Position numbers and translations under genes: made by a program. From Nitrospira sp. ND1 (GTDB lineage Bacteria; Nitrospirota; Nitrospiria; Nitrospirales; Nitrospiraceae), in the NCBI RefSeq assembly GCF_900170025.1, contig NZ_FWEX01000006.1:1511089-1575088 (forward strand): 64,000 nt of DNA, in the 5' to 3' direction. The notes beneath the pieces are model-generated. The model was not told where the DNA came from, searched no databases, and saw nothing but the letters and a program-made list of their open reading frames with translations. This document shows positions 26,100 through 61,740 of this stretch, piece by piece (the stretch's first letter is position 1; each line of letters starts with the position of its first letter).

Positions 26100-27845
<1,746 letters not shown>

Positions 27846-32611: not shown

Positions 32612-32705
32612 TACATGACGGTAGCTCTTCACTTTTTAACCCTGTCAGACAAAAGAGTCAAGCGGTCTCGGCTGAATGACCGTGAGGGAAGGAAGGTTCC
32701 ATGCC

Positions 32706-33671
32706 ATGGCAAGAGAGCACGTTAATCATAGCGATCTCGTACGATTCGCACAGGAGAAGGTAAATCTTCCCAAAGACAGGGCCGATGCATATCGCACTCA
32801 GGCACGCGGCTTACGAGACAAGCTCGAAAACTACCTGAACGAGCATCCCGACTTCACACTCAAAAAGATGATGCTGTCCGGAAGCCTTGCCAAGGGCACG
32901 GCGTTGCGTACCCTAAACGACATTGATGTTGCCTGCTACATCAGCGGCGCAGATGCGCCTAACGATGTCGCAGCCTTGCTTCAGTATCTCGCCGAACGTC
33001 TACGTAAGGCGTATCCGAATTTTTCTCCGGACCAAGTGAAAGCCCAAACATACAGCGTCACGGTATCCTTTCGGGGAACAGGGCTAGACGTTGATGTCGT
33101 GCCGATTCTCTATACTGGAGACCCCCAATGGCGTGGCAATCTTGTCAGCCAGGATGATGGCTCTTTCCTTGAGACCAGCATCCCGCTCCACCTTGATTTC
33201 ACCCGCAAGCGCAAAGACGCACAGGAAACTCACTTTGCACAGACTGTGCGGCTGATTAAATTTTGGGCACAGAAGATGAAACGTGAGAACCAAGACTTCA
33301 GGCTTAAGTCCTTTATGATCGAAATGATTCTGGCCCATCTTTCCGACAAAGGTCTCAAGTTTTCCGATTACCCGGAAGCGCTGCAACACTTCTTCACTTA
33401 TGTCGCGAAGACCAATCTCCATGAGCGCATCGTGTTTGAGGACTACTACAAATCCTCGCAGGTGGGTTCATTCAAGGAGCCTGTACAGATAATCGATCCG
33501 GTCAATGCCAAGAACAATGTCAGCCGGCTCTACACCACTACACAGGTCACTGCAATCGTAGATGCGGCCCTGGATGCGGGCGATGCTGTTGAGGCAGCTC
33601 TGAGGGCCCCCACCAAACAAGAAACCGTCTACTACTGGCAGAAAGTCTTTGGCTCAACATTTCAGATATAA
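32706..33671 (+). CDS. CD-NTase (SMODS-type nucleotidyltransferase), first cyclase of the CBASS operon
   Basis: The 321-residue protein carries the nucleotidyltransferase signature SGSLAKGTALRTLNDIDV (Gly-Ser at 59-60, Asp72 and Asp74) and a third acidic strand LDVDVVP (Asp128/Asp130). All catalytic positions are present. These enzymes make cyclic oligonucleotides on phage sensing. The following HORMA and TRIP13 genes control CD-NTases in type III CBASS. The ATG at 32706 follows a GGAAGG site; an upstream out-of-frame ATG at 32701 is ignored. The stop is eight bases from the HORMA gene start. Confidence 0.9.
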   Translation: MAREHVNHSDLVRFAQEKVNLPKDRADAYRTQARGLRDKLENYLNEHPDFTLKKMMLSGSLAKGTALRTLNDIDVACYISGADAPNDVAALLQYLAERLRKAYPNFSPDQVKAQTYSVTVSFRGTGLDVDVVPILYTGDPQWRGNLVSQDDGSFLETSIPLHLDFTRKRKDAQETHFAQTVRLIKFWAQKMKRENQDFRLKSFMIEMILAHLSDKGLKFSDYPEALQHFFTYVAKTNLHERIVFEDYYKSSQVGSFKEPVQIIDPVNAKNNVSRLYTTTQVTAIVDAALDAGDAVEAALRAPTKQETVYYWQKVFGSTFQI

Positions 33672-33679
33672 GGAGAACT

Positions 33680-34195
33680 ATGAGTACCAGCTTTACCCTT
33701 TCCGAGACGACCAGCTTCACAGTCGCACATGCCAAACATATGGCAGCCAAAGTCGCAACTGACCTCAAGCGGTTGCAAGGGTTCTATGGCGATCCGCCTG
33801 ATCTCCTTATTGATCAGTTCGAAAAAGAAGTCATCGAACTTCTCAAGGGAGGATACCTGGGAAAGGTCACGTACGGTTTTAAGCGCAACGGAAACTGGAT
33901 CGAACCGACTCTTCAATACACTGCCCGCGATCTCTCAGAAGTCTTCACAAATGACGACGATCCGGGGCGTATCCGACCAGGCAAGGATATCTCCAACGCG
34001 ACCTTTTACAGCTACCTTATTTATAGTAACGCCTGGAATAACCTGTCGCAGGCCGAAAGAGAGGTCTTCGAAAACCACCTTCCTTTCAAGAGGGGAGGTG
34101 CATCCGAACCAGGAGTCACCGGGTATCTGAACAGCGATCGAACATATTCCTCGGGTGGCCGGGCACTTGATCGCGCCAGCGTCAGGAGCTTCTGA
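33680..34195 (+). CDS. cap7: Bacterial HORMA-domain protein (Cap7-like)
   Basis: The 171-residue protein fits the bacterial HORMA family of type III CBASS: SFTVAHAKHMAAKVATDLKR, VTYGFKRNGNWIEPTLQYTA, NDDDPGRIRPGKDI, and a C-terminal safety-belt-like segment (TYSSGGRALDRASVRSF). In studied systems the closed HORMA protein binds a phage peptide and activates the CD-NTase. Family assignment is by recalled sequence pattern plus neighbours. The stop overlaps the ATG of the TRIP13-like gene (TGATG), so both are made together. Confidence 0.8.
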   Translation: MSTSFTLSETTSFTVAHAKHMAAKVATDLKRLQGFYGDPPDLLIDQFEKEVIELLKGGYLGKVTYGFKRNGNWIEPTLQYTARDLSEVFTNDDDPGRIRPGKDISNATFYSYLIYSNAWNNLSQAEREVFENHLPFKRGGASEPGVTGYLNSDRTYSSGGRALDRASVRSF

Positions 34196-35136
34196 TGACC
34201 ACACGTCCTCCGCTCGATGAACTCTTTGAACGGCGCCTCACATACCCCGATGTTGACGCGATGGATCGTCTTGCCCGCCTTGTCGGCCTTGACGACCAAA
34301 AATCCCGTCTCACGAAAATTCTCGGCCTTCTCGTCAATCCCCGTGGACTGGAAACATGGGCCAAGAAGCACCACCACGGAGCGACGGACCTCCTGAATAC
34401 AGTTTTACGACGGCCGCCCCTCGTTGTTCTTGCAGGTGATGTAGGATCCGGAAAATCAGAACTGGCCGAAACCATCGGCGATGCTGTGGCACGACAGGAA
34501 AAAATCGAGATTACTCTTTTCCCGCTTAGCCTCTCTACCCGCGGACAAGGGCGGGTCGGGGAAATGACACAGCTCTTATCAGCCGCGTTCGATTACACAG
34601 TCGAAGAAGCCACCAAACTGAAAGGTACCTCTAACCGATCGCGAGGCGCTATTCTACTTCTCGTCGATGAGGCAGACGCCATCGCGCAATCAAGGGAAGC
34701 CGCCCAGATGCATCACGAAGACCGCGCTGGCGTGAATGCATTCATTCGCGGCATCGACCGTATCGGCAACGGTCGCCTTCCCGCCGCCGTCATCATGTGT
34801 ACTAACAGGCTCGGATCGCTCGACCCTGCCGTGAAACGGCGAGCGGCAGACATTCTCGCCTTTGACCGCCCCAATGAGTTGCAACGTCATGCAGTCCTGG
34901 ACCGGCCACTCAAGCAGCTTGGCTTTTCACAAACGAGCATAACCGCAATCGTAACTGCCACGGGTGTTGTTAAGGGGCGTGATCACGGCTTCACCTTTTC
35001 AGATCTGACTCAGCGCCTTCTCCCTGCCATTGTATTGGATGCATACCCTGATCAAGCTGTCGTCCCTCAGCGCGCGCTAGCAATTGCAGAATCGATAATG
35101 CCAACACCTCCATTCCAAGAAAAGGTCATAGAATGA
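34195..35136 (+). CDS. cap6: TRIP13/Pch2-like AAA+ ATPase (Cap6-like)
   Basis: The 313-residue protein is a single AAA+ module: Walker A LAGDVGSGKSELAE, Walker B ILLLVDEADAIAQ, sensor 1 AAVIMCTNRLGSLDPAVKRRA, and sensor 2 region GFTFSDLTQRLLP. TRIP13 homologues remodel HORMA proteins from closed to open state, which switches CBASS off. Position directly after the HORMA gene with overlapping codons supports this. The N-terminal ~50 residues may contact the HORMA protein. Confidence 0.88.
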   Translation: MTTRPPLDELFERRLTYPDVDAMDRLARLVGLDDQKSRLTKILGLLVNPRGLETWAKKHHHGATDLLNTVLRRPPLVVLAGDVGSGKSELAETIGDAVARQEKIEITLFPLSLSTRGQGRVGEMTQLLSAAFDYTVEEATKLKGTSNRSRGAILLLVDEADAIAQSREAAQMHHEDRAGVNAFIRGIDRIGNGRLPAAVIMCTNRLGSLDPAVKRRAADILAFDRPNELQRHAVLDRPLKQLGFSQTSITAIVTATGVVKGRDHGFTFSDLTQRLLPAIVLDAYPDQAVVPQRALAIAESIMPTPPFQEKVIE

Positions 35137-35276
35137 CGTGGCCATTTCACCACTCATGCCGCTGAGAGCAATGAGACGATATCGAGTGAGCATCTCAACG
35201 TCCGGACTGTATAGCGCCGGTATTTGCCATCGAGTTTCAAACATGCCTGATCAATTGCAGATTCGTTTTTAGGAAA

Positions 35277-37040
35277 ATGAGCCTTATGGAGCACCCTACC
35301 CAAATCTTATTCATTCTAAACGTTGATGGAGATGTTTCCGAATCGGAGCTACTCCCACTCCTCACTCCCAATCGATACGAGCTTCTTCCGTTTCGTCTCA
35401 GCGACTTTGGCGCCGCAGCTGTCCTGCGTGAAGGTGGAAAACGATTGCCGGTAGATTGGAATGGTCATGCCGATGCCATCGAGCGAATGATTTCGGTTGC
35501 GCGAGACAAGAATCGCGAACTCGGGCGACCTACCGAATTCTATGCTACCGGGCTAGCACCCCTTCCTCTTTTCGCACATCTCGGGTGTGAGTTGTCTGCG
35601 TGGGCAGCCCCCCTGGTGCTCCTCAATCGTCGAAAAGCGGAGCAGTGGGATGTGTTGCCGCTCGTTGGGTCGGAAGTAGAAAAGAGCGGCCAGTTTTTTG
35701 ATGTCATGGAAGGTCTTTCGACAGGTGGGCCTGCAGTAGGGACTGGACACGTCGCATTGTTTGTCTCGACGATCGGTCAGCCAGCACCACAGGACGCAAT
35801 CAGAACTGCGTTACGTGAGGACGGAAAGGGTCTCGCTGGGGTGGTCGAGATAAGAACCAGTAGCCTCCGATATCTTGATAGTACAAATTCTGCGAATGCC
35901 TCAGAGCAACTGACGATGTTTCTGTCACAAATCGCAGGAGCCTACCCGCATGCTGCAGGAGTCGCTGTGTTTATTGCTGGTCCTGCTCCGCTCGCTCATA
36001 TCGTCGGACGAGCAATAAACCCCAATCAATTTGCCGAGATCTTATTCGCTTATTATGAGGCGCCTCGCTATGAGATTGTTCTGCGACGGCCACGGCCAGG
36101 GAGACGTATTCGACCGATCAGTATGGAACAGAGCGATAAACTTGTGCGAACGAGTGTCCTGGAAGAAATGAAGAAGGGAATTGAGGATATCCGTGCGACG
36201 GTCCAAGCAGAAGATCTTCCTGAGTTCATGGGGAGCGAAGGCAAGTCCCAGTTCCTGAATAATCTACGGAGAGTTGCCTTGCCGAGTTGTCCAGAGGGTG
36301 AGTCTTTTGAACTCCACGTGCTTCAGGGACGAATGATTCTGGGGCATGGTCTTCTCGAAGCCCTCCGAGACTGCAGTCTGGAAAGTGTCCGTCGTATTGC
36401 TGCGCTGTTCTTCCTCCACGAGGTCTATCATTTTGATCAAAACCTGCAGTCGACCAACTATCTCAATATTGGTCGAGCCGGTGTCGTATTGGAAGAACTC
36501 GACTTTTGGGCTGACGCCGTCGCGGTTTACGTCCTGACTAGGCGAGACATTCGCCTTAGCCAACCGGATGATCGTGATGCAGCCAGTCGCTGCCTTTCTG
36601 CAAATGTGGAGGGGGTGCTGAATGGCATCGAGGCGTTCGATCGATTCGAGCATGGGAATCGTATTGATCGGTTGGCAGAACGACGTCTTCGCCGGTACTT
36701 GATATGGCATCTTGAGCTAGCACGTGCACGAACACGACCAGAGACTGGCGGAGAGATCGAGCGCATGCTCACTGAGCGTTTGATTGTCGAACTTGCTCCC
36801 CTCGCTGGTCCGGTTGATGTTCGTTCAGAAAAAATTGTCAGCCGACCGTTTCCCACAACTGAACTCTATGTCGTGTTAGGGAAAAGGCTCTTCCGTTTTC
36901 CGCCCAATGCCTACGTCGATCCTGGAGTCGTCATCGAATCCGTTCGTAGTTTTGCTCGTGAAACTCTTGCGTCCACTATGGATCATGTTGTGGGCCAGCA
37001 TGGTCAGGACTTTGCCCCCTGGGTTCTGAAAACGCGGTAG
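35277..37040 (+). CDS. SAVED-domain protein with C-terminal HExxH metallopeptidase-like domain, predicted CBASS effector
   Basis: Residues about 80-275 show the SAVED pattern that binds cyclic oligonucleotides: TEFYATGLAPLPLFAHLGCE, then HVALFVSTIGQPAP and AAGVAVFIAGPAPLAHIVGR followed by YYEAPRYEIVLRRPRPG. The second half (about 300-587) contains FLHEVYHFDQ with HEVYH at residues 381-385, and LEELDFWADAVAVYVL about 25 residues later, which could supply the third zinc ligand. Characterised SAVED effectors carry nuclease, TIR or Lon-type domains. A zincin fusion would be a ligand-activated protease. It lies between TRIP13 and a second CD-NTase on the same strand. Domain calls are by eye. Confidence 0.75.
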   Translation: MSLMEHPTQILFILNVDGDVSESELLPLLTPNRYELLPFRLSDFGAAAVLREGGKRLPVDWNGHADAIERMISVARDKNRELGRPTEFYATGLAPLPLFAHLGCELSAWAAPLVLLNRRKAEQWDVLPLVGSEVEKSGQFFDVMEGLSTGGPAVGTGHVALFVSTIGQPAPQDAIRTALREDGKGLAGVVEIRTSSLRYLDSTNSANASEQLTMFLSQIAGAYPHAAGVAVFIAGPAPLAHIVGRAINPNQFAEILFAYYEAPRYEIVLRRPRPGRRIRPISMEQSDKLVRTSVLEEMKKGIEDIRATVQAEDLPEFMGSEGKSQFLNNLRRVALPSCPEGESFELHVLQGRMILGHGLLEALRDCSLESVRRIAALFFLHEVYHFDQNLQSTNYLNIGRAGVVLEELDFWADAVAVYVLTRRDIRLSQPDDRDAASRCLSANVEGVLNGIEAFDRFEHGNRIDRLAERRLRRYLIWHLELARARTRPETGGEIERMLTERLIVELAPLAGPVDVRSEKIVSRPFPTTELYVVLGKRLFRFPPNAYVDPGVVIESVRSFARETLASTMDHVVGQHGQDFAPWVLKTR

Positions 37041-37092
37041 AAACATCGGATCCTCCGCGAGCTTAGGAAATTATTTCAACTGAGGTTAGTAC

Positions 37093-38004
37093 ATGGCAGC
37101 AGAAGAATTCTTGTCGAATCTTGCCAGAAAGTGGGAGCCTACAGAGTTGCAAAAGCAAGAGGTGGCTGCTAGCCAGCGTCACCTTCGAGAACTCCTCCAC
37201 GAGTCGAGACTCCCCGTACTGGATTCGTATCTCTCTGGATCATATTCCCGAGACACCGCACTGCGCCCTATCGACGATGTTGATATTGTGTTTATCGTAG
37301 AGCCCTCTCACTGGAGTCAGTGGCCGTCATTGTGGCGTCCTGAACCATATGAAGTACTCGACAGCTTTGCGAGGGCCATTCGTCATCGGTATACACTGTC
37401 GTCAGTGTATGGGCAGCGGCGGTCTGTAAACCTTCGTCTTTCAGATCTTGACATAGATGTGGTTCCTGCGTTGAGTGCAAACGAACACTCATCAGCGATC
37501 TATGTCCCGGACCGTCAAGCAAGGACATGGATTTTAAGCAATCCCAAAGAGCATGCGCGACAAGCGACACAAGTAAATCGATCTCGAGATGGACAGCTAA
37601 AACCTTTAGTCAAACTGCTTAAGCTTTGGAATCGTCAATTGCCGTCGACGGCGCAGGTAAAGTCGTTTCTATTGGAAACTATGGCCCTTCGTATTTTTAG
37701 GCGGTATGGAATTCCGTCGCTTGAAGAGGGCCTTGTGAGGTTTTGGGACCATATGGCCTATGCCGCAGGCGAGGATACGGTACTCCAGTGGGAGTCGGTA
37801 GGAATCGGCCTATCTGGGTGGTCAACATCTGTGCCTGATGTAGCGGAAACGGGAGGTGATGTTGCTGGAGGCCTTGATTCGGAGTGTCGTCAAAAGTTTG
37901 TACAACGAGCGATCAGCTCACGAGACAAAGCACTAGCGAGCCTACGGGCTAGAAACAACTCGTATGCTGTAGATCACTGGAAGCGTGCGTTTCATCTTCT
38001 TTGA
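37093..38004 (+). CDS. Second CD-NTase-like nucleotidyltransferase in the CBASS operon
   Basis: The 303-residue protein has SGSYSRDTALRPIDDVDIV (Gly49-Ser50, Asp62, Asp64) and LDIDVVP (Asp120/Asp122), so the catalytic triad is intact. It is clearly diverged from the first cyclase of the same operon: the signature reads GSYSRDTAL against GSLAKGTAL, and the flanks differ. GAGG precedes the ATG. It lies 52 bases after the SAVED gene and ends the operon. It could make a different signal, broaden sensing or be a remnant of another CBASS unit. Confidence 0.85.
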   Translation: MAAEEFLSNLARKWEPTELQKQEVAASQRHLRELLHESRLPVLDSYLSGSYSRDTALRPIDDVDIVFIVEPSHWSQWPSLWRPEPYEVLDSFARAIRHRYTLSSVYGQRRSVNLRLSDLDIDVVPALSANEHSSAIYVPDRQARTWILSNPKEHARQATQVNRSRDGQLKPLVKLLKLWNRQLPSTAQVKSFLLETMALRIFRRYGIPSLEEGLVRFWDHMAYAAGEDTVLQWESVGIGLSGWSTSVPDVAETGGDVAGGLDSECRQKFVQRAISSRDKALASLRARNNSYAVDHWKRAFHLL

Positions 38005-42278: not shown

Positions 42279-43999
42279 GATTTCGCCTCTTCGCCAAGCA
42301 GTTCCATTTGGCCAGACGGAATCGGGGCTTTGGGCAAGTTCTCGATCTTCAGACTGTAATCGTCATGGCCCCATTCGCAGCGAGAGAGCACGGTCTTGGG
42401 AATCTTTTTGACCGTGAGATTGGGATACTTATCGGGCTTACCTCGAAAAGCAGGGCACAGCACTAGGAGCGACCGCTCTTCGCCAACCTCATCGCTCAAT
42501 GCCTGCAACTGATCGTGACTCAGGTTCTGAGTCGTGACATAGATGAAGTCTCGTTCAGTCGAATGGCCCTGCTGCCAATAGACGGAATCGCTCGGCTCAT
42601 AGGTAAAGCCTTCCAACTTGCAGACGGCCTGAGCCAGCATCGCCGGATTATAGGCTTTATTGACAACCCAGTTACCCCACTTATCTTTCTCCAGGAGGGA
42701 CGGCGCAAGGTGGTAGTAGCGGAATCCACCTCCACCTTTCCAACCCACGGCTTTTGTAATACCGCTAGTATCTGTGCCGTCAATAACACTTCGCATCCGA
42801 GGTAGTATATGTGTGTCGCAGTGTTCACGCAGTTCTATCATGATCCAGCGCCTACCTAACTTATGGGCGACAGCTCCAGTTGTTCCCGATCCTCCAAAGG
42901 AATCTAGAACCCAGTCACCAGGACGCGTCGTTAAATCAAGTATTCGCTTGAGGAGCGACTCAGGCTTCTTACCCTTTGGGAAAGCTACTCCACCCTCATT
43001 GTGGAGATTATTAGAAAGCAGGTCATCCCAAAGTGTCGTCAACGGTTCTCCAGCTACGAGTTTGCCATCGATGCTTTTGAGCTTGTCGCGGTAAAACAGG
43101 ATTCGTTCACCTCCGACAAAATACATATCAGAGTGCTCCTCACGGGGAAGTTTAAATATATTCTCAGGATTCGCTGAAGATTCGTCGATCAGCTCTCTTG
43201 CGGCACTACTAACAGCATCATAGTCTGGCTGGGCAAAACGGATAACATTGTTTGCAAACTCGACGACAAACTCCTCCAGAAGATCCGGTCGCGCCTTGAG
43301 ACTGGACCGAGCCTCTTTCTCTGTAATGCCACGCGATTGAGCGAATCCGCGTGTGAGCGTGACAAATTTCCATCTCTCGAACGCTTCGTCTGGATTAAGA
43401 AGAAACTGATTGTAGCGCTTGTCACGTTCTCGTCCGACGAACACACGGTTGGGTCGCCACAAGGCCTTTTGCTTAGAGTAAACTATTAGAAAATTAGTGG
43501 TGCTGACGCAGCCTGGATTTATCGCTTTGTGGCCGGTCGGAGCTCCCTGTTTGAATGTGATGACTGAAATCCGGTTAGAGCGTTGAAACACCTCATCCAT
43601 AAGGACTAGCAGGTAACCCAGTTCGTTGTCGTCGATGTGAACAACTATCGTTCCGTCATCTGTCAGCAAGCGATATAGCAACTCAATTCGATCTCGGATT
43701 AGAGAAAGCCAGATAGAATGCTCGAGCCCGTCATCGTAGTGCTCCATCGCCTGTCCGGTGTTAAACGGAGGATCGATATAGATGCACTTTATCTTCCCAG
43801 TAAATTCCTGTTCGAGCGCTTTGAGTGCCAATAGGTTGTCGCCAAAGATGAGCCGGCTGTCGAATAAATCATGCTCGGTGACACGGTGTGATGCGTGGTA
43901 GGACTTCTCGCGGTCCTCCAGCAGAATCCGCGGCTCCAGCTTCGGCCGGTTCTCCTTCCCAATCCAGGTGAGTTCTAGTTTATGTTTTCGGATAGTCAT
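42275..43999 (-). CDS. mod: Type III modification methyltransferase Mod (adenine-N6, beta class)
   Basis: The 574-residue protein has the beta-class motif order: catalytic IDPPFNTGQ (DPPF at 76-79) first, then the SAM motif DSFGGSGTTGAVAHKLGRRW near residue 370. The target-recognition region lies between. It probably methylates adenine and provides recognition for Res. The N-terminal segment (KLELTWIGKENRPKLEPRIL) recurs in a truncated copy at 45675-45836. It starts two bases after the OLD gene stop and overlaps res. Confidence 0.92.
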   Translation of the reverse strand: MTIRKHKLELTWIGKENRPKLEPRILLEDREKSYHASHRVTEHDLFDSRLIFGDNLLALKALEQEFTGKIKCIYIDPPFNTGQAMEHYDDGLEHSIWLSLIRDRIELLYRLLTDDGTIVVHIDDNELGYLLVLMDEVFQRSNRISVITFKQGAPTGHKAINPGCVSTTNFLIVYSKQKALWRPNRVFVGRERDKRYNQFLLNPDEAFERWKFVTLTRGFAQSRGITEKEARSSLKARPDLLEEFVVEFANNVIRFAQPDYDAVSSAARELIDESSANPENIFKLPREEHSDMYFVGGERILFYRDKLKSIDGKLVAGEPLTTLWDDLLSNNLHNEGGVAFPKGKKPESLLKRILDLTTRPGDWVLDSFGGSGTTGAVAHKLGRRWIMIELREHCDTHILPRMRSVIDGTDTSGITKAVGWKGGGGFRYYHLAPSLLEKDKWGNWVVNKAYNPAMLAQAVCKLEGFTYEPSDSVYWQQGHSTERDFIYVTTQNLSHDQLQALSDEVGEERSLLVLCPAFRGKPDKYPNLTVKKIPKTVLSRCEWGHDDYSLKIENLPKAPIPSGQMELLGEEAKS

Positions 44000-45678: not shown

Positions 45679-45836
45679 TTCAGAGTAAGCCGGTTAACCA
45701 GTAGATCATGGTTGGTGACACCGTGCGATGCGTGGGAGGACTTCTCGCGGTCCTCCAGCAGAATCCGTGGCTCCAGCTTCGGCCGATTCTCTTTTCCAAT
45801 CCAAGTGAGTTCGAGTTTTGTACGGTTGCTGGCCAT
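45675..45836 (-). pseudogene. Truncated duplicate of the mod 5' end, coupled to the OLD gene
   Basis: A 53-codon frame begins MASNRT and continues KLELTWIGKENRPKLEPRIL, then LEDREKSSHASHGVTNHDL, closely matching residues 8-45 of the intact Mod about 1.8 kb downstream. The sequence is diverged at the ends and at silent sites. Like the intact mod it starts two bases after the upstream gene stop (TAG-N2-ATG). Its TGA overlaps the GTG of the OLD gene. It is best read as the remains of an earlier mod gene displaced when the OLD gene came in. It may now act only as a leader peptide. Confidence 0.85.
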
Positions 45837-54328: not shown

Positions 54329-55183
54329 ATGAAGCAACAAATGAAAATGGTTCCTCTTACCTCGCTCAAGATTCACCCCATTAACCTGCTGAGGGCTCCA
54401 GACACGGACCTGATTGAACGATTGGTGGAAAGCATGCGGCGGGAGGGATTTCGTCCGAACCATCCTCTTTTGGTGACACGTAATTACTTCATTCTGGACG
54501 GGAAAAACCGATTTTTCGCTGCGGCAATGGCTGGGATCAAAACAATTCCTATTGTCTTTGATGAAGCGACCACAGATGTCGAGGCAATGACTGCCACCAC
54601 CGTAGACAACACCTTTATCAACAATCTGAACCAAAAGCTTCCGAGAGGAGTTCGCGTGATTAATACGGTCCGGATCTGTCTCTTAGAAGAGAAAGGAGTG
54701 AAAGATCCCTGGAGCTTGGCCGGGGTCAATAAATCTGATTGGTTTGCTGCCAAACGCGTCATCGATGCAGAGATACAGAAGGCGAGCCAGACCCGAAAGG
54801 GCCTCCCGATCGAACTTCTTGACGAGATGATCCGCGTCCGGAAGATCTCCGAGCAGGTTTTCGATTTGTACCACGATGAGAAGGCATGGAACAGGATCGT
54901 CAAAGGAACGGCTGCATCGACTACACCGAAACGCAACTCTAAACCAACAGAAATCAGCGATGCAATTAATGCCTTATCCCATTATGTGAAGGTGACATCA
55001 GAGCAGGACGATAGTTTGCCGGAATCATTGCGAAATAACGTTCAATCATGCCTGGCCAAGATCAAGAAGCTCAGTCGGCCGGATACCGCCGGGAAGGCAT
55101 TGGTTCTCGCGTGCGAGGTGACGTTGTCCTTACTGGCCAACAACAAAGATTCCAGTGACAGCTCTTCTAAACTCTTTGATTGA
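54329..55183 (+). CDS. ParB/Srx-like nuclease-fold protein
   Basis: The 284-residue protein has the ParB N-terminal fold: MVPLTSLKIHPINLLRAPD, then LIERLVESMRREGFRPNHPL, then YFILDGKNRFFAAAMAGIKT (Arg-rich helix after the DG turn) and IPIVFDEATTDVEAM. The rest is helical without a clear DNA-binding HTH. Such proteins bind or cut DNA or use CTP. I chose the ATG at 54329 with AAAGGAG upstream; the frame could extend 39 codons further. It heads a four-gene plus-strand unit with two tyrosine-recombinase-like proteins. Confidence 0.75.
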   Translation: MKQQMKMVPLTSLKIHPINLLRAPDTDLIERLVESMRREGFRPNHPLLVTRNYFILDGKNRFFAAAMAGIKTIPIVFDEATTDVEAMTATTVDNTFINNLNQKLPRGVRVINTVRICLLEEKGVKDPWSLAGVNKSDWFAAKRVIDAEIQKASQTRKGLPIELLDEMIRVRKISEQVFDLYHDEKAWNRIVKGTAASTTPKRNSKPTEISDAINALSHYVKVTSEQDDSLPESLRNNVQSCLAKIKKLSRPDTAGKALVLACEVTLSLLANNKDSSDSSSKLFD

Positions 55184-55193
55184 TGGACGAGAT

Positions 55194-55970
55194 ATGAAGT
55201 TTATCCCTATGAAGCCTGGATCAATCGGTCTTCGTGTTGATGAAGTGGGCTTCACTGCGTCCACCGATGACTTAAATAAACTGAGAAAGCAAATAGACGA
55301 TTTGCGAATGCTTTCTCTCCGCCTCCCCTTGATCGCCAGGGAAAATTCTGCGGAGGGGGTCCCATCTCTCATTGGGAGCCATGTTGCTTATTCTTTGATG
55401 CATGACCACCCGGAGGCTGAGGTCCCACTTATCGTCATACCGTCCCAAGACCTCACAGAAGAGAACCTCAAGTTCCTTACTAAACTCGATCGGGTGATCT
55501 CCACCGCAGTGGTTAACGCTTTTTCGAAGGCTAAGGGTCCATCGCGTCCAATCCGGGCCAGAGAAAAGCGAGTCGACCAAAACCAGAGATGCGTCATCTG
55601 TCACCATCCGGGAAAGGACTACGTGCTCCGCATACCTAAAAACTGGAAGACTCTTCTCTCACAGAACCAAGGTGGTCACATTTCCTGCAAAAAGTGTGGC
55701 ATACGGATTTTCCTGAATGCCGAAGAATTGCGGGAATTTAATTCCGGCACCCTAACAACATGGCACTTTATTCGTCTCAAATATGGAACAAATGGACGGG
55801 TTGAGGAATGCCCTCTGTGTGCAGCGGCCAAGAAGCAGTTCGGAATTATCTTACAGAGATTCCGCAGCGGTCATCTAATTGGGGAGGTGTGTCGGAATAG
55901 GCTAAAGGATCCCTTGGAGTGTGGATTCGAGCGAATCTATGATGGTGTGATATGGCTGTCTGCGATCTAA
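55194..55970 (+). CDS. Zinc-ribbon protein of the recombinase operon
   Basis: The 258-residue protein is unassigned. The N-terminal ~110 residues (LRMLSLRLPLIARENSAEGV, GSHVAYSLMHDHPEAEVPLI) are faintly ParB-like in layout. The C-terminal half has paired cysteines CVICHHPG, CKKCG and ECPLCAA plus a late CRNRL, indicating zinc-binding modules. It could recognise DNA sites for the recombinases; this is inference. I start at MKFIPMKPG, where GGA lies seven bases upstream. It overlaps the next gene by 19 bases. Confidence 0.65.
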   Translation: MKFIPMKPGSIGLRVDEVGFTASTDDLNKLRKQIDDLRMLSLRLPLIARENSAEGVPSLIGSHVAYSLMHDHPEAEVPLIVIPSQDLTEENLKFLTKLDRVISTAVVNAFSKAKGPSRPIRAREKRVDQNQRCVICHHPGKDYVLRIPKNWKTLLSQNQGGHISCKKCGIRIFLNAEELREFNSGTLTTWHFIRLKYGTNGRVEECPLCAAAKKQFGIILQRFRSGHLIGEVCRNRLKDPLECGFERIYDGVIWLSAI

Positions 55971-58543
55971 GTCCCCAGGTAATAGAGTTCCTCCAGAGGA
56001 CTAACACTCATCCAAGTACAATCCTCAGGTATGAGGAAACTCTACCTCTCAGCATCATTCTCCCGCCGTTGGCCGACAAAGTCAGCGGGTGTTCATTGAA
56101 GGACGCTGTTCAATGGACCAATGCCTTCTTCTCAGCTTTTGATATTCCTTTAAACCTACGAGGTATTTTGCATGCCGAAAGCGTGTTTCGCTATTGGGTT
56201 CCACTCCTTCTTCAAGAGAACCCGCCTATTGAAACGACTGTTGCAATCGCCATCCTGGGTCGACTATTCGCGGATCTAAATATCTATAATAAAAACGAAC
56301 TGGACAAAGGACTCTTTAGCCTGCGGCCACGCGTGGAATACGAGCCTTTGTTTGCCTTCCACGTCGACGCAATTCGCTGGATCGCCAAGGACGAATCACC
56401 CTGTCCGTTGTATCAGTTGTGGGGAAGAACATTTCACAAAGGCCTTCGCGAGATTCAGTCCACTACTTCAGAATTGGAAACTCTGCGGGGTTATGCAACA
56501 TCTGCACGACTGTTCTTCGTCAAGTTCCCACATGATTCCGAATGTATTGATCCTTCTGGCCCCATCACATTTCAAGCGTTTGAAACACACGTTGATTGCT
56601 TCCATAAGGGTTATACCGCTAATCCTCCAAAAACGCGGCGAACGCGTGCAGTAAAGAAAATGGCAGACGAGCATTGTGATCGGTTAATTCGACTTTTCCA
56701 CACGCATAAAGTGCGTGAGTCTAAACATAGTGGAGGCGGCCCCGCGCAGGACGAGCGATCACAATCATTGGATCAGTCTGTCGCCGTTGAACGTATTGAC
56801 GACTACCCAACTCCCCGGCACGGCGACTTTCGAGAAGATGTGTCCCCGCTCACGGCTATAGTTGTAGTAGATCAGCTGGGAAACGAAGAACCAGCAAGCG
56901 CCATAGGGCAAAACGAACCAGAAGAGACCGTAAGCGATTGGGTTTCCTCGGCCGATCAAGCGCCGCTGCTTCGGCATCCTCCCTCCATTCCATATTCTTA
57001 CAAGTCCCGCTACTACCTGTATCAATACGACTTCTTTTGGGACTCTAAAGTTCCAGCCCCTCACACCCTTGTAGAGCTTTATAAGACGGTTGAACACTTG
57101 AGCCCATTGGACCCGGCAAAGTACGGGGCCCTTTGTCTCATGCTGCTTGTGCCTTTATTCACAGGACGTGATGTGCGAGAACTCGAAGAAGCGGTGATTG
57201 CACCGTATCCGACGAAAGCAGAAAGCCGACTTCTGGATTTCCACGCTACCCTCTTCTTTGATGTGCGTGCGGAGTGGTTCTTTTTTCATCAGGATACGCT
57301 CCGCTCTTCGTTTCAGCCGCCGGAAGCAAGCGGATGGCTTGCATCGACGACATGGGTTCCATTTCCTCTTCCGCAGCCATTGCTCAATACATGGAGGACT
57401 TACTGTGCGTGGCTCCAAGATGTCGGTCAAACCACTCCCGGTTCTCCGATACTCCAGTATGTCGATGAAAAAGGACAGATCAAGACACTCAAGGCGAAGG
57501 ATGTTCATGGATTGTTAATAAGAGCAGGGGTTGATGCACGTCTAATCCCAAGAGTATCAGATCTTTGCCGAGGCTTTCGCGGATGGCTCGTTCACGGGTT
57601 CGGAATGAATGATGTGATGGCTTACTTCATTAGTGGACAGCTAACCAGGGTGGGAGTCAAGCCCCGCTATACCCATTTGATGATTGACAACTTCCATGAC
57701 GAATATCAAAGGTGTTGTAATGACCTACACAAGTATGTGTCTTCCCATCTTCCATTGTCCGGTTGGTGGAATAATCGCCCCGCCGTCGCTGGTCATATCC
57801 GAGATCAGGTGAGCGTCTATGGCATCGGCTCTCCGCTCGTATTAGGAGAAACCGTGCTACGAGAAGAAATTGAAAGGGTAGGCAACGCGGTCCACCGAAC
57901 GTCATACCCCCGCAAACCCAATGAGGTAATTTCACATCATAACGCATCTGTAACCTATGCGGCTCTCGCCGCTCTAACGCTGGGAATTCGACCGAGAAAT
58001 GATTTTGGCTTTTTGCAGAATGATTATCTCGCCGATTTCGTTTGCATTCCCATCATCGACAAATTGAGTTCGCTCTATATTGAAGACCGCTTAATGGGTT
58101 TTCCTCCCACCGTTAGGCATCTCTTTCGCGAACTTGCCACAGGAAGAGAGCGGCTCATCCATATGTTGAAGATGTATTTTGGATATCCTGCTGAGCAGGA
58201 GTTGGAGAGTGACAGGCTCTTTGTGTTCTTGATGGACAACGGAAGTATCAGGTCATTCAGTTTGCGTACGTTGAGGGAGCTCTTGACAGCCTTTGGTTCG
58301 CACCGCCTAGCCCAAGGGCCTCTAAACATGGGGCGGCATTACAATAGAAGCTGCAAAGTGCCCTTGTATGCCGACGATACGATTGATTTCCATATTGGCC
58401 ATCAACGAGCTGGACGAGAGCCCTTCTGCGCTTTTAGTAGCGCGTTCATAGGGCAGGCGCTGAAACTGTTGCAAGATCATCACGAGGATCTTGTCACGCA
58501 TCTTGGATTCAGAAAACTTCCGTATTTCCCACAGACAAAATGA
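55952..58543 (+). CDS. Very large tyrosine-recombinase-fold protein, catalytic tyrosine apparently missing
   Basis: The 863-residue protein has an integrase-type C-terminal core. YAALAALTLGIRPRNDFGFL resembles box I with its Arg. GRHYNRSCK (Arg795-His796) resembles box II, and HIGHQRAGREPF (814-825) resembles the GH of the last motif. Where active enzymes have Tyr 8-11 residues after GH, Phe825 and Phe828 are found and no Tyr. The N-terminal ~550 residues lack a recognised domain. It overlaps the next gene, which encodes a complete tyrosine recombinase, by four bases (ATGA). It may be a structural partner in a heteromeric recombinase. Confidence 0.65.
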   Translation: MAVCDLSPQVIEFLQRTNTHPSTILRYEETLPLSIILPPLADKVSGCSLKDAVQWTNAFFSAFDIPLNLRGILHAESVFRYWVPLLLQENPPIETTVAIAILGRLFADLNIYNKNELDKGLFSLRPRVEYEPLFAFHVDAIRWIAKDESPCPLYQLWGRTFHKGLREIQSTTSELETLRGYATSARLFFVKFPHDSECIDPSGPITFQAFETHVDCFHKGYTANPPKTRRTRAVKKMADEHCDRLIRLFHTHKVRESKHSGGGPAQDERSQSLDQSVAVERIDDYPTPRHGDFREDVSPLTAIVVVDQLGNEEPASAIGQNEPEETVSDWVSSADQAPLLRHPPSIPYSYKSRYYLYQYDFFWDSKVPAPHTLVELYKTVEHLSPLDPAKYGALCLMLLVPLFTGRDVRELEEAVIAPYPTKAESRLLDFHATLFFDVRAEWFFFHQDTLRSSFQPPEASGWLASTTWVPFPLPQPLLNTWRTYCAWLQDVGQTTPGSPILQYVDEKGQIKTLKAKDVHGLLIRAGVDARLIPRVSDLCRGFRGWLVHGFGMNDVMAYFISGQLTRVGVKPRYTHLMIDNFHDEYQRCCNDLHKYVSSHLPLSGWWNNRPAVAGHIRDQVSVYGIGSPLVLGETVLREEIERVGNAVHRTSYPRKPNEVISHHNASVTYAALAALTLGIRPRNDFGFLQNDYLADFVCIPIIDKLSSLYIEDRLMGFPPTVRHLFRELATGRERLIHMLKMYFGYPAEQELESDRLFVFLMDNGSIRSFSLRTLRELLTAFGSHRLAQGPLNMGRHYNRSCKVPLYADDTIDFHIGHQRAGREPFCAFSSAFIGQALKLLQDHHEDLVTHLGFRKLPYFPQTK

Positions 58544-60804
58544 CTCCTAAGACCCTAGAAGAACTGGACAGCGTGATCAGGGCATTTGCCCAACAACTGG
58601 ATCGTCTGGGGAAACGGGCCCCACAAACCGTTCTCACGGTGTGGTCATATCTACGGAATGTATTGGATAGATGCCAGATTAAAGATGATGGTCGGTATGA
58701 CATCCCAGATCATTTACTAAACGACCTCATTAAGACTCTCGACAAACAATATTCCTCACGCGCTCATCAGTGGCAGGCCAAGCACACACTTAATCTCATT
58801 CTATTTAAGCTGACGAAGGAGTCCGTGCTGCACTCCAAATTTGTCAATGTACCGCACCAAGTACCTCGCACATTGGTCACCACTCTCGATGGGATTACTC
58901 CATCGATGCTGGCTGCTGCCTACCATTTGCGGCGCATCATGCAAAAGACAACTGCACCCGAGCCTTCTCAAGACTGGCGTTGGGGGATAGAGCTATGGAG
59001 TTACATGTGTTTTTACACATCAGTCGTGCTCGACAGCTTTGTCCTGCTGCCGAATGTCCGTAGTCGCCTATTACACCTTCGCAGAGAAGATTTGAAAGAA
59101 CGCGGCTGGCTGAAGCTTCCGCAGCATGGACGACGCGAAGAGGTAGACCAAGGACTACGCTCGCTACTCAGGTTTCCGCTGACTCACTCGGGCACCCTTC
59201 ATCTCGAGAACCTTCTACAGATACTCGACCTGCCGGCATCAGGAAGAATCTATAAGGATCCAGTCTTCACAGATGAGTGGCGGACTTCACGATGGCATAA
59301 GCGTATGCGCCTCTCGTGGATCGATTTCATGGCCGAACTCATGACCAACACTGCCTTTTCACCTTCCTTGTTCTCAATGGAGACATTAGTCCATGTAGCT
59401 ACCGTAGTCGCTATGCTGGAGAACATGCCCCCGTTCGCCGTCGCTGTACACACTGGCCAAGTATCGATTTCCCCCATGACTGACGGTAGCTTCAATCGGC
59501 TGTTTCTGCTGAAGAGCTTGCGAGGTACCGAAACACTAGTACGCTGCCAGACACCAGTAAAGCCCCGACAGCGGGCATCTACCCATGGACCAGATGGCGA
59601 ACTTTTTCAGCAAATTGAGCAAGCGCGTCATCGGCTTCACCGCGAGCAGGCTGATGCGAAGAAGGTCCGAGGATTGATTGCGGATAGAATCCTCCAGTTG
59701 GTTGAAGTGACCGAAACTGAACTGGTCGATCGGGCCGAGCAATTCACTGCACTTGGGTACAACGTTCGGTGTTATGGACTTTGGCTGATACGTCTGTTGA
59801 GAGGGAAAGACGACAACGGTACTGTTGCCACGCGCGCTTCCGCGATAGCAGCTGCCTTCTTCCCATATTTTGTCGGTTCGCCCTTTTGCCGGTGGAGCGA
59901 GTTGGATTGGATATCGAATCTCGCCTCGGCTATGGACGATCATGAGACGTCTCAAGCCACGGCTAGCTACCGGCGGTTTGTCGATTTTCTCGCAGAAGCT
60001 CGATTGACTCCGAAGCCCACTATCCCCTGGCAAGCCCAAGCGTTCAGAAAATCAGCCGTTCACTACCCAGTCCCATTGGTAAGCCCTCAAGAATTTGAGG
60101 CAGCTCTTGCAGCGAGTTCCTTACATTTCATACCTGCGGGAATTCGCTCCCTGCTCCGAGTAAAAATGATCCTGGGTTTCGATCTGGGACTACGCAGCAT
60201 GGAAGCAACCAACTTGAAACTGCGGCATTTCATCAGGGAGCCGGAACCTGTGATCGAAATCAGGATCACTAAGACGGCTTCTGGTATCCGCAACCTCCAC
60301 CTCTCAAAGCTCATGGTGGTTCACCACTTGGTTGAGATTTGGCAGTTCGTAGATCAACGTTACAGAGAAACGGGAGGTAACTTGGACGCCCCACTGCTTG
60401 CGACGGTGGAGCATCCAGAGCCATATGACAGCAGTTACTTGGCGTCGCTTGCTGGACTAATACTTCGGGAGGTTATCGCCGAAAATCTATGTTTTCACCA
60501 CTTGCGGCATTCCTTCGCCAGCTGGTTTCTCCTGCGTTGGCTTAAGGCTGTAAGACCAGACTTATTTAATGGAGTGAATATCCCCATATTCGAGCAACAG
60601 ATATTTGAAGAGCCACTCCTCAGCGCCCTCCGTCAACTTTTGTTCGGCTTACGGGAACCAAAGATCGGGGAAGTTGCCTTCTCTCATGGGTTGGTCGCTC
60701 TATGCCGGCTGCTGGGGCATAGCAGCCCAGCAACTACACTTTCCTCATACTGCCATACAGTCGATGTCCTCTCTAATCTGATTTTAGCGGGAAGGCGGAA
60801 CTAG
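58540..60804 (+). CDS. Very large tyrosine recombinase (integrase family)
   Basis: The 754-residue protein has a full catalytic set at its C terminus: box I LGFDLGLRSMEATNLKLRHF, a Lys-bearing beta turn (ITKTASGIRNLHLSK), box II FHHLRHSFASWFLLRW (His-x2-Arg near 653), then CRLLGHSSPATTLSSYCHTV with Tyr737 as nucleophile. About 500 residues precede the core, far more than in phage integrases (usually 350-450 in total). It probably catalyses integration or excision together with the preceding Tyr-less paralogue. Confidence 0.88.
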   Translation: MTPKTLEELDSVIRAFAQQLDRLGKRAPQTVLTVWSYLRNVLDRCQIKDDGRYDIPDHLLNDLIKTLDKQYSSRAHQWQAKHTLNLILFKLTKESVLHSKFVNVPHQVPRTLVTTLDGITPSMLAAAYHLRRIMQKTTAPEPSQDWRWGIELWSYMCFYTSVVLDSFVLLPNVRSRLLHLRREDLKERGWLKLPQHGRREEVDQGLRSLLRFPLTHSGTLHLENLLQILDLPASGRIYKDPVFTDEWRTSRWHKRMRLSWIDFMAELMTNTAFSPSLFSMETLVHVATVVAMLENMPPFAVAVHTGQVSISPMTDGSFNRLFLLKSLRGTETLVRCQTPVKPRQRASTHGPDGELFQQIEQARHRLHREQADAKKVRGLIADRILQLVEVTETELVDRAEQFTALGYNVRCYGLWLIRLLRGKDDNGTVATRASAIAAAFFPYFVGSPFCRWSELDWISNLASAMDDHETSQATASYRRFVDFLAEARLTPKPTIPWQAQAFRKSAVHYPVPLVSPQEFEAALAASSLHFIPAGIRSLLRVKMILGFDLGLRSMEATNLKLRHFIREPEPVIEIRITKTASGIRNLHLSKLMVVHHLVEIWQFVDQRYRETGGNLDAPLLATVEHPEPYDSSYLASLAGLILREVIAENLCFHHLRHSFASWFLLRWLKAVRPDLFNGVNIPIFEQQIFEEPLLSALRQLLFGLREPKIGEVAFSHGLVALCRLLGHSSPATTLSSYCHTVDVLSNLILAGRRN

Positions 60805-61740
60805 TCACATTACATGACATGCAAATTCTGGTTTGCAAGCGCGCACACAGTTTCGCTTGTATTTACGTGTAAAGCATTGCTTCAGAATTTTCTCGGTCAC
60901 GTAGTGACACGGCGAGGTAACCGATCTTCCTGTCAGCACCTTCCCCCTACACAGCCAGGAAACTATTGGGTGAAGCCTCCAGACGGCACGCGAGAAGTGA
61001 TGGTCACTGTAGAGCTGAGGGGCAATGAGCTGATGGTGTGATGGCCCAACTGCGTATTTTGCTCCAAATGAGCCACTCTGCGTTTGTGGCCAGAAACGTT
61101 TAAAGCGAGTCTGTTATGACGACACCGCCACGGGTATTTACAGATCGGATGATTGAGAGACATAGCGACCCACTCTATGTATCCATCGTCTCCCGTGTAC
61201 CTGAGACCGGTCCTTCAGGGCGGCTCGGGCGGACAAAGCCTGGGCATCTCATTAGATCAAACGTCAATTCTCCGCATGCGCTCCACTTTCGCGAAGCATC
61301 GTGAGATGCGAGCTCTTTTTAGGCTTAAGGGACAATACGCGTCGTGTTCTGCCAGAAGACAACTGCGCTTGCCTACGATAGTGACCAGCTTTTGGCAGGA
61401 ATCTCGACTCGCATCGTGAAACTCGACTGATCCTCAGGCCCGCAGGGGCCCACCGTCTTGCAGAAGCAGAACGGCCTTGGCCGCTGATCGTTCGACAACG
61501 GGCGACACGTGAGGAATGTCATTCCGGCCGGATAGGGCCCACGCACTGCAAGACACCACAATGGGCACCACCCGCCATCGACGGCTCAGTCCACCTATCG
61601 CCCACGGCGAACGCTGCGGCAAATGGCGAAACGGATCGTTGAAGCTGACGCGTTTCTTGAAGGCCGGTAGTCGGTCGTTGGCCGCATATGAGGGACACCG
61701 TGGTTATCCACGCTGTGGCCCTTGAGATGAGGCGGAAGCT
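60805..61740. other. Intergenic region, mostly unexplained
   Basis: About 935 bases downstream of the recombinases with no supported gene. A 13-base interrupted palindrome GTCAC-GTA-GTGAC lies at 60896-60908. A weak open frame at 60814-61041 (+) ends in PGNYWVKPPDGTREVMVTVE, which looks protein-like, but has no convincing start and may be a remnant. Confidence 0.4.

Follow-up and report, generated by a model that had tools for sequence, protein, structure and literature searches.

Two large, coupled tyrosine-recombinase-fold proteins in Nitrospirota defence islands, one with a possible active site composed of two folds

The described systems closest to the locus studied here are clusters of recombinase genes. 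Strand-biased circularizing integrative elements (SEs) carry the genes intA-tfp-intB-srap and have been reported from Gammaproteobacteria only (PMC9345347, PMC10214605). GInt elements carry ginABCD, that is three tyrosine recombinase (TR) genes plus ginD (PMC5385486), and the Gamma-Mobile-Trio (GMT; GmtX/Y/Z) is summarised as a small recombinase operon on defence-rich elements (PMC12715929). At the level of the enzyme, Flp and the SSV1 integrase are known to hand their catalytic Tyr over to another subunit, the latter cleaving in trans, and the Tyr of XerA is extruded from its pocket (PMC3646895). We analyzed a stretch of 64,000 nucleotides from Nitrospira sp. ND1 (hereafter the window, whose numbering is used throughout) encoding two large proteins, here called A and B. 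Our preferred reading, to which we assign a probability of about 0.45, is that A and B form one heteromeric TR module in which A would hold a composite active site, both proteins would have different roles in cleavage and DNA would be moved in defence islands.

Gene A (863 aa; 55952-58543, + strand) and gene B (754 aa; 58540-60804, + strand) overlap in an ATGA, as had been stated in an earlier sequence-only reading, and are probably translated together. That reading had also placed a ParB-like and a zinc-ribbon protein upstream of the pair, and both were found in the window. The ParB-like protein (284 aa; 54329-55183, + strand) scored above the cut-off of PF02195 (ParB_N, 27.6 bits) and matched a ParB-like family in PHROGs (E 4e-11). 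The zinc-ribbon gene (55194-55970, + strand) encodes 258 aa from its ATG, or a longer frame from an upstream GTG start (55155-55970, + strand), and its 3' end lies within the start of A. The front part of its product is ParB-like by eye and its zinc-ribbon matches were all below cut-off; the homologue in another genome (G457, locus L078) scored above the cut-off of PF13408 (Zn_ribbon_recom, recombinase zinc beta ribbon). The ParB-like protein is encoded by a separate gene in the window and in G097, a genome from another genus of the same family. At most homologous loci a single protein of 208-432 aa, in many cases bearing paired CxxC motifs, is encoded upstream of A. The expectation of a conserved four-gene order was thus borne out in part: the succession of a zinc-ribbon and/or ParB-like gene, A and B is kept, but both upstream genes are separate only in the window and G097. 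This helper, which usually accompanies A and B, probably binds DNA.

We searched for homologues in samples of Nitrospirota genomes. Relatives were found within the genus (G007, G016, G021), within the family (G097, G118) and throughout the phylum. B-type proteins were detected in 16/396 genomes of the phylum sample and A-type proteins in nine of the 230 genomes of another class; overall, A-B was present in approximately 4% of the sampled Nitrospirota genomes. Within the genus the module is patchy (4/29 genomes), and B of the window is 66% identical to a relative in another genus versus 24-25% within the genus; it is single-copy in its own genome. A profile scan of genome contigs with A recovered four loci, all already present in the genome search results; the carriers named by scanning with A are Nitrospirae bacterium JdFR-86, Nitrospirae BP4.bin67, Thermodesulfovibrio sp. 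SW.3.86 and Nitrospirae DeMMO3_8. The contig scan with B alone found nothing. At nearly all loci read, A (~790-880 aa) is directly followed by B (~670-1100 aa), and no conserved gene follows B. Plasmid, phage and viral collections yielded no relatives of A. The viral-contig matches to the B profile resemble ordinary integrases and were used as a reference set.

Selection was assessed by comparing the window with G097, a comparison in which synonymous sites are near saturation and dN/dS values call for caution. For A, B and the zinc-ribbon gene dN/dS was 0.13-0.25, with 0.24 for the N-terminal, 0.19 for the middle and 0.13 for the C-terminal part of A and 0.18 for B. Judged from these values, every part of A appears to be under purifying selection. 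Together with the occurrence of homologues across several families of the phylum, they indicate that the A-B pair is more than a chance arrangement.

B had been credited with a complete R-K-HxxR-GH-Y set, and this proved correct: R552, K578, H653xxR656, G726H727 and Y737 were invariant in 14/14 B homologues. These residues lie in a C-terminal catalytic TR domain (59722-60801, + strand) with ~70 residues between HxxR and GH, which was recognised by hhalign with a probability of 99.8. The reference profile for hhalign consisted of 19 ordinary integrases from viral contigs, and the E-values given are those of single comparisons. B gave weak matches to Phage_integrase and XerC/XerD models in Pfam and NCBIfam, it matched an integrase family in PHROGs (E 1e-13), and a profile of six B-type proteins retrieved Xer recombinases (XerA-type) from the PDB. 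By its catalytic set within a TR catalytic domain, B qualifies as a tyrosine recombinase, which would cut and rejoin DNA with a normal set of residues. The N-terminal half of B (residues 1-394; 58540-59721, + strand) appears TR-like as well (hhalign probability 93.9, E 1.6e-7), with no catalytic set recognised.

A consists of an N-terminal region (residues 1-345) followed by a middle domain (approximately residues 362-600; 57035-57751, + strand) and a C-terminal domain (approximately residues 630-863; 57839-58540, + strand). Searches of Pfam, NCBIfam, PHROGs and PADLOC gave nothing for window A, nor did a sequence search of the PDB, and the C-terminal domain of a homologue (L064) reached 24.3 bits with PF00589, which is below cut-off. 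By profile comparison with the reference integrases, the C-terminal domain was recognised with an hhalign probability of 97.2. The middle domain gave a weak hit (probability 5.5, E 0.007) with an alignment that spans the whole domain and pairs Tyr573 of A with the catalytic Tyr and 'ISG' with 'LGH'.

AF2 modelling of full-length window A together with four homologues gave a pLDDT of 34 and was used for secondary structure alone. Residues 346-875 of the L064 homologue, which are 24% identical to the corresponding fragment of window A, were modelled with four other sequences (model m6cc84bff302a) at a pLDDT of 72.4 and a pTM of 0.68. Structural comparison was performed using VIA-align 2, and the matches listed covered TR and topoisomerase IB families. 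Model residues 17-241 resembled archaeal XerA (4a8e; Z 15.2, rmsd 3.7, 173 aligned). Model residues 291-476 resembled a staphylococcal integrase (3nkh_A; Z 13.2, rmsd 3.0, 167 aligned) and residues 291-505 resembled Flp (1p4e_C; Z 9.1, rmsd 4.2, 169 aligned). Since the model matches TR catalytic domains twice, A is predicted with high confidence to hold two TR folds in tandem, and the proposal that the 863-residue protein is integrase-fold is upheld by the model of its homologue and by the profile comparison. Taken with the two TR-like units of B, this suggests that the pair comprises four TR-like units on two polypeptides. Compared with complexes of Cre, XerH and lambda Int, the first fold of A aligns up to approximately model residues 209-215, ending immediately before Tyr217 (equivalent to Y573); in the comparisons with XerA, with SSV1 integrase and with some further structures, the alignment continues past this point. 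This pattern is suggestive only, as each match lists its first and last residues and not the alignment.

Some copies of A are damaged. At two loci in two genomes (L078, 4933-6960; L079, 8644-10671) a remnant of A ends after the middle TR domain and B is lacking. The remnants in G457 and G442, which are cut at approximately position 617 of the profile, were considered as natural split forms; this was rejected and they are read as decay. In G007 the A gene is broken by an insertion that is IS3-like by eye (L013, 14709-15886), and the copy in G016 is intact.

The catalytic residues of A are distributed over both folds. The middle domain has lost R/H/R/H and kept Tyr573 (codon 57668-57670, + strand), which was invariant in 16/16 A homologues. 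The C-terminal domain holds R680, K704, R795-H796-xx-R799, G816-H817 and E823 and has no conserved Tyr. Here R680, R795, H817 and E823 were conserved in 15/15 homologues, K704, H796 and G816 in 14/15 and R799 in 13/15. In G021, A is encoded by two ORFs that separate the halves, and each of them carries its part of the residues; these ORFs were joined end to end for the residue alignment of A only. An independent alignment of 12 divergent A proteins gave the same residue picture (L064 numbering), the invariant columns being Y562 in the first fold and G635, S636, N667, R684, R717, R797, H820 and E826 in the second, with K708, H798, R801 and G819 conserved at >=90%. Both domains have a TR fold, the middle one in the L064 model, and neither contains the complete catalytic set by itself, Tyr alone being conserved in the middle domain. 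Going by these counts over the A homologues, the first fold has kept the Tyr alone and the second all but the Tyr; added together, the two folds of A present a full R-K-H-R-H-Y set.

This picture modifies how A had been described by the sequence-only reading, namely as a protein keeping Arg and GH-like positions with Phe in place of Tyr. R680, K704, RH796xxR799 and GH817 are there, as are Phe825 and Phe828 after the GH, but an additional TR fold upstream holds the invariant Y573. Constancy of the two Phe residues, which was to be checked in homologues, was not observed: position 825 is F/M/L/Y/W and position 828 (GH+12) is F/I/H/Y/T/S/A, and the invariant residue in this segment is E823. Because Tyr occupies position 828 in 5/15 homologues, one may ask whether the C-terminal domain acts in cis with another nucleophile, either Tyr828 where present or a nearby residue. 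We regard this as very unlikely, given that the remaining ten, the window included, have F, I, H, T, S or A at position 828, and that the C-terminal domain proper (from residue 630) has no Tyr column conserved with two exceptions or fewer.

The case for a composite site is built mainly on the residue pattern, from which we tentatively infer that A forms one active site from its two domains. Tyr573 of the first TR fold would be donated to the R-K-H-R-H pocket of the second, either within one A chain or between A chains, as occurs between monomers of Flp and SSV1 integrase. With a normal site in B and a composite Y573 site in A, the two proteins would supply different cleavage activities at the recombination site. 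In a further form of this reading, which we hold to be somewhat less likely than not, the single active site of A is shared out over its two TR folds, Tyr lying in the first and R-K-H-R-H in the second, and the partner adds two more TR-like units; the two polypeptides would then contribute four TR folds, as many as a normal synaptic tetramer has.

The main rival to the composite-site reading sees A as a catalytically dead TR-fold protein with a part in DNA binding and in the shaping of the synapse, leaves the chemistry to B alone and takes Y573 to be structural. Proteins of this type have precedents: Tfp of SEs and GinC of GInts, encoded in comparable operons, are TR-fold proteins in which the catalytic set is wholly or partly missing, and another TR-fold protein, MrpR, is known as a prophage repressor (PMC10516654). 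A middle fold without the other catalytic residues and a C-terminal domain without a conserved Tyr would suit a dead protein, too. However, such a protein would not have to retain R, K, H, R and H within a single domain, nor a Tyr exactly where the other domain has its nucleophile position, and both residue sets are among the most conserved of the A family. We therefore consider a dead A somewhat improbable. The related idea of a heteromeric recombinase with an inactive subunit, put forward before, agrees with the coupled A-B genes, the canonical set in B and the TR-like N-terminal regions; the inactivity itself is not established because the full R-K-H-R-H-Y set is spread over the two folds of A.

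The module lies inside a genomic island of ~70 kb (26170 to ~95840) in a tRNA-Met gene. The tRNA-Met (26100-26176, + strand) forms the left end, and the right end, in the window genome and in G097, is CCCCGCAACCA, identical to the 3' end of tRNA-Met and located at ~95.84 kb in window numbering, 31.8 kb past the window. The repeated tRNA 3' end measures 11-12 bp; a direct repeat of tRNA-Met was absent near B and was found at this far right end. A large serine recombinase at the left end (26133-27845, - strand; PF00239, PF07508, PF13408) is the probable island integrase. The 3' end of its gene overlaps the tRNA-Met gene, and the window and G097 hosts have different T-arms in this tRNA, with compensating changes. 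In G016/G007 the module resides in an island at tRNA-Thr with a sequence at its end that is tyrosine-integrase-like by eye. As other recombinases are thus located at the tRNA ends of the islands, A and B need not be the proteins that insert them.

Comparison of the window with G097 suggests that the cassette has a history of its own. Left of tRNA-Met, the two chromosomes share ~74% identity; inside the island they are 95.3% identical over 17.4 kb from tRNA-Met and 96.6% over 27.4 kb beyond B. The stretch comprising the zinc-ribbon gene, A and B (55.2-60.9 kb) reached a dS of 1.4-2.1 compared to 0.37 for the adjoining ParB-like gene, and the flanks are also less diverged. Judging from a dS so far above that of ParB and the flanks, this cassette was probably exchanged or acquired separately, and the history of the ParB-like gene appears to differ from it. 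A conserved non-coding stretch behind B (60805-60908, + strand; 82.7% over 98 bp versus G097) ends abruptly and is a candidate module end. At the B-side end we found no convincing inverted or direct repeats, and neither element termini nor a circular form were found for the module.

Additional differences and repeats were seen within the island. A stretch of 5.96 kb (60909 to ~66870) in the window genome is absent from G097, where the hairpin whose loop corresponds to its right breakpoint is intact; it carries ORFs that are UmuC-like and SRAP/HMCES-like by eye. The segment 61301-61690 (~390 bp) has an 87% repeat near the right island end (~93.9-94.3 kb in window numbering). A direct repeat of 121 bp (89%; 43865-43985 and 45702-45821) flanks the OLD/GajA-like gene between defence genes.

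The island carries defence cargo in the window (32676-53665, unstranded), namely CBASS-type genes (HORMA, AAA, SAVED effector, cyclase), PDC-S26, type III RM, OLD/GajA-like, PDC-S06, DUF2130, a DrmD-type helicase and an unknown 236-aa protein. The CBASS-type cluster (32676-38004) consists of SMODS/HORMA/AAA genes, a SAVED-peptidase effector and a second cyclase gene. Near the module, G097 shares with the window CBASS-type, type III RM, OLD-like, PDC-S06, PDC-S26 and DrmD-type helicase genes. Defence genes also occur near it in G016/G007, in G118 (type I RM), in G298 (OLD/GajA-like, PifA) and in G367 (AbiEi, PDC-S01), several of these loci being unrelated, and they vary between loci. This proximity, in addition to the separate recombinases of the islands, raises the idea that the module serves in anti-phage defence, as a component of such a system or as a regulator in defence islands, and is not a mobility device. 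We consider this quite improbable: the adjoining defence genes differ from locus to locus, neither A, B, the zinc-ribbon nor the ParB-like protein had a PADLOC match (E 0.01), and B combines a complete recombinase active site with matches to phage integrase families. According to the preferred reading, the module would move or reshuffle DNA in these defence-rich islands, and it bears on how defence genes get shuffled.

If the split site is real, A would show Flp-type Tyr donation in a natural, covalently linked form, and the recombinase would be an asymmetric one. Since the roles of the subunits would then be fixed by sequence, the control of which strand TRs cut would become testable by simple point mutants. 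Like A, Flp and SSV1 integrase complete an active site with a Tyr from another TR fold (PMC3646895), but they are identical monomers with a full set each, whereas A would have its set shared out between two dissimilar folds of the same chain. A limited literature search yielded no tyrosine recombinase whose active site is spread across two folds of a single polypeptide.

Among the gene clusters, SEs resemble A-B in having an overlapping operon of TR-fold proteins, one of them (Tfp) without the catalytic set, in having an IntB with an extraordinarily long N-terminus and in carrying cargo. In contrast to SEs, the A-B locus has no separate IntA and no Srap gene, and the order intA-tfp-intB-srap is not found, A and B being accompanied by the upstream zinc-ribbon/ParB-like gene alone. 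Tfp is reported without the RHRY motif, whereas A keeps R-K-H-R-H plus a displaced Tyr. SEs have imperfect 19-bp inverted repeats at both ends; for the module, a coarse local alignment with the B-side end, the one end used, gave no match to it, and the SE operon was not recognised in three stretches read of plasmid pAQU1. GInts share with A-B a TR cluster with one degenerate member on cargo-bearing genomic islands; they differ by three TR genes plus ginD, as opposed to two TR-type genes for giant proteins with two TR-like units each. GMT differs in its helper gene and in its recombinase: the GmtY model NF040693 does not match B, which was not among the matches of this model in its own genome at E 1e-3, and no GMT models were among the NCBIfam matches to A, B, the zinc-ribbon or the ParB-like protein (E 1) or to two homologous pairs (E 0.01). 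Tn554-type and RIT clusters, as far as literature summaries describe them, resemble A-B in that several TRs act together. We know of no tandem TR folds in one chain in these clusters. Because A-B departs from SEs, GInts and GMT in gene order or model matches and possesses tandem TR folds, it is best read as a recombinase module analogous to these clusters and as a distinct family, which would add a module of Nitrospirota defence islands to systems reported mainly from Proteobacteria.
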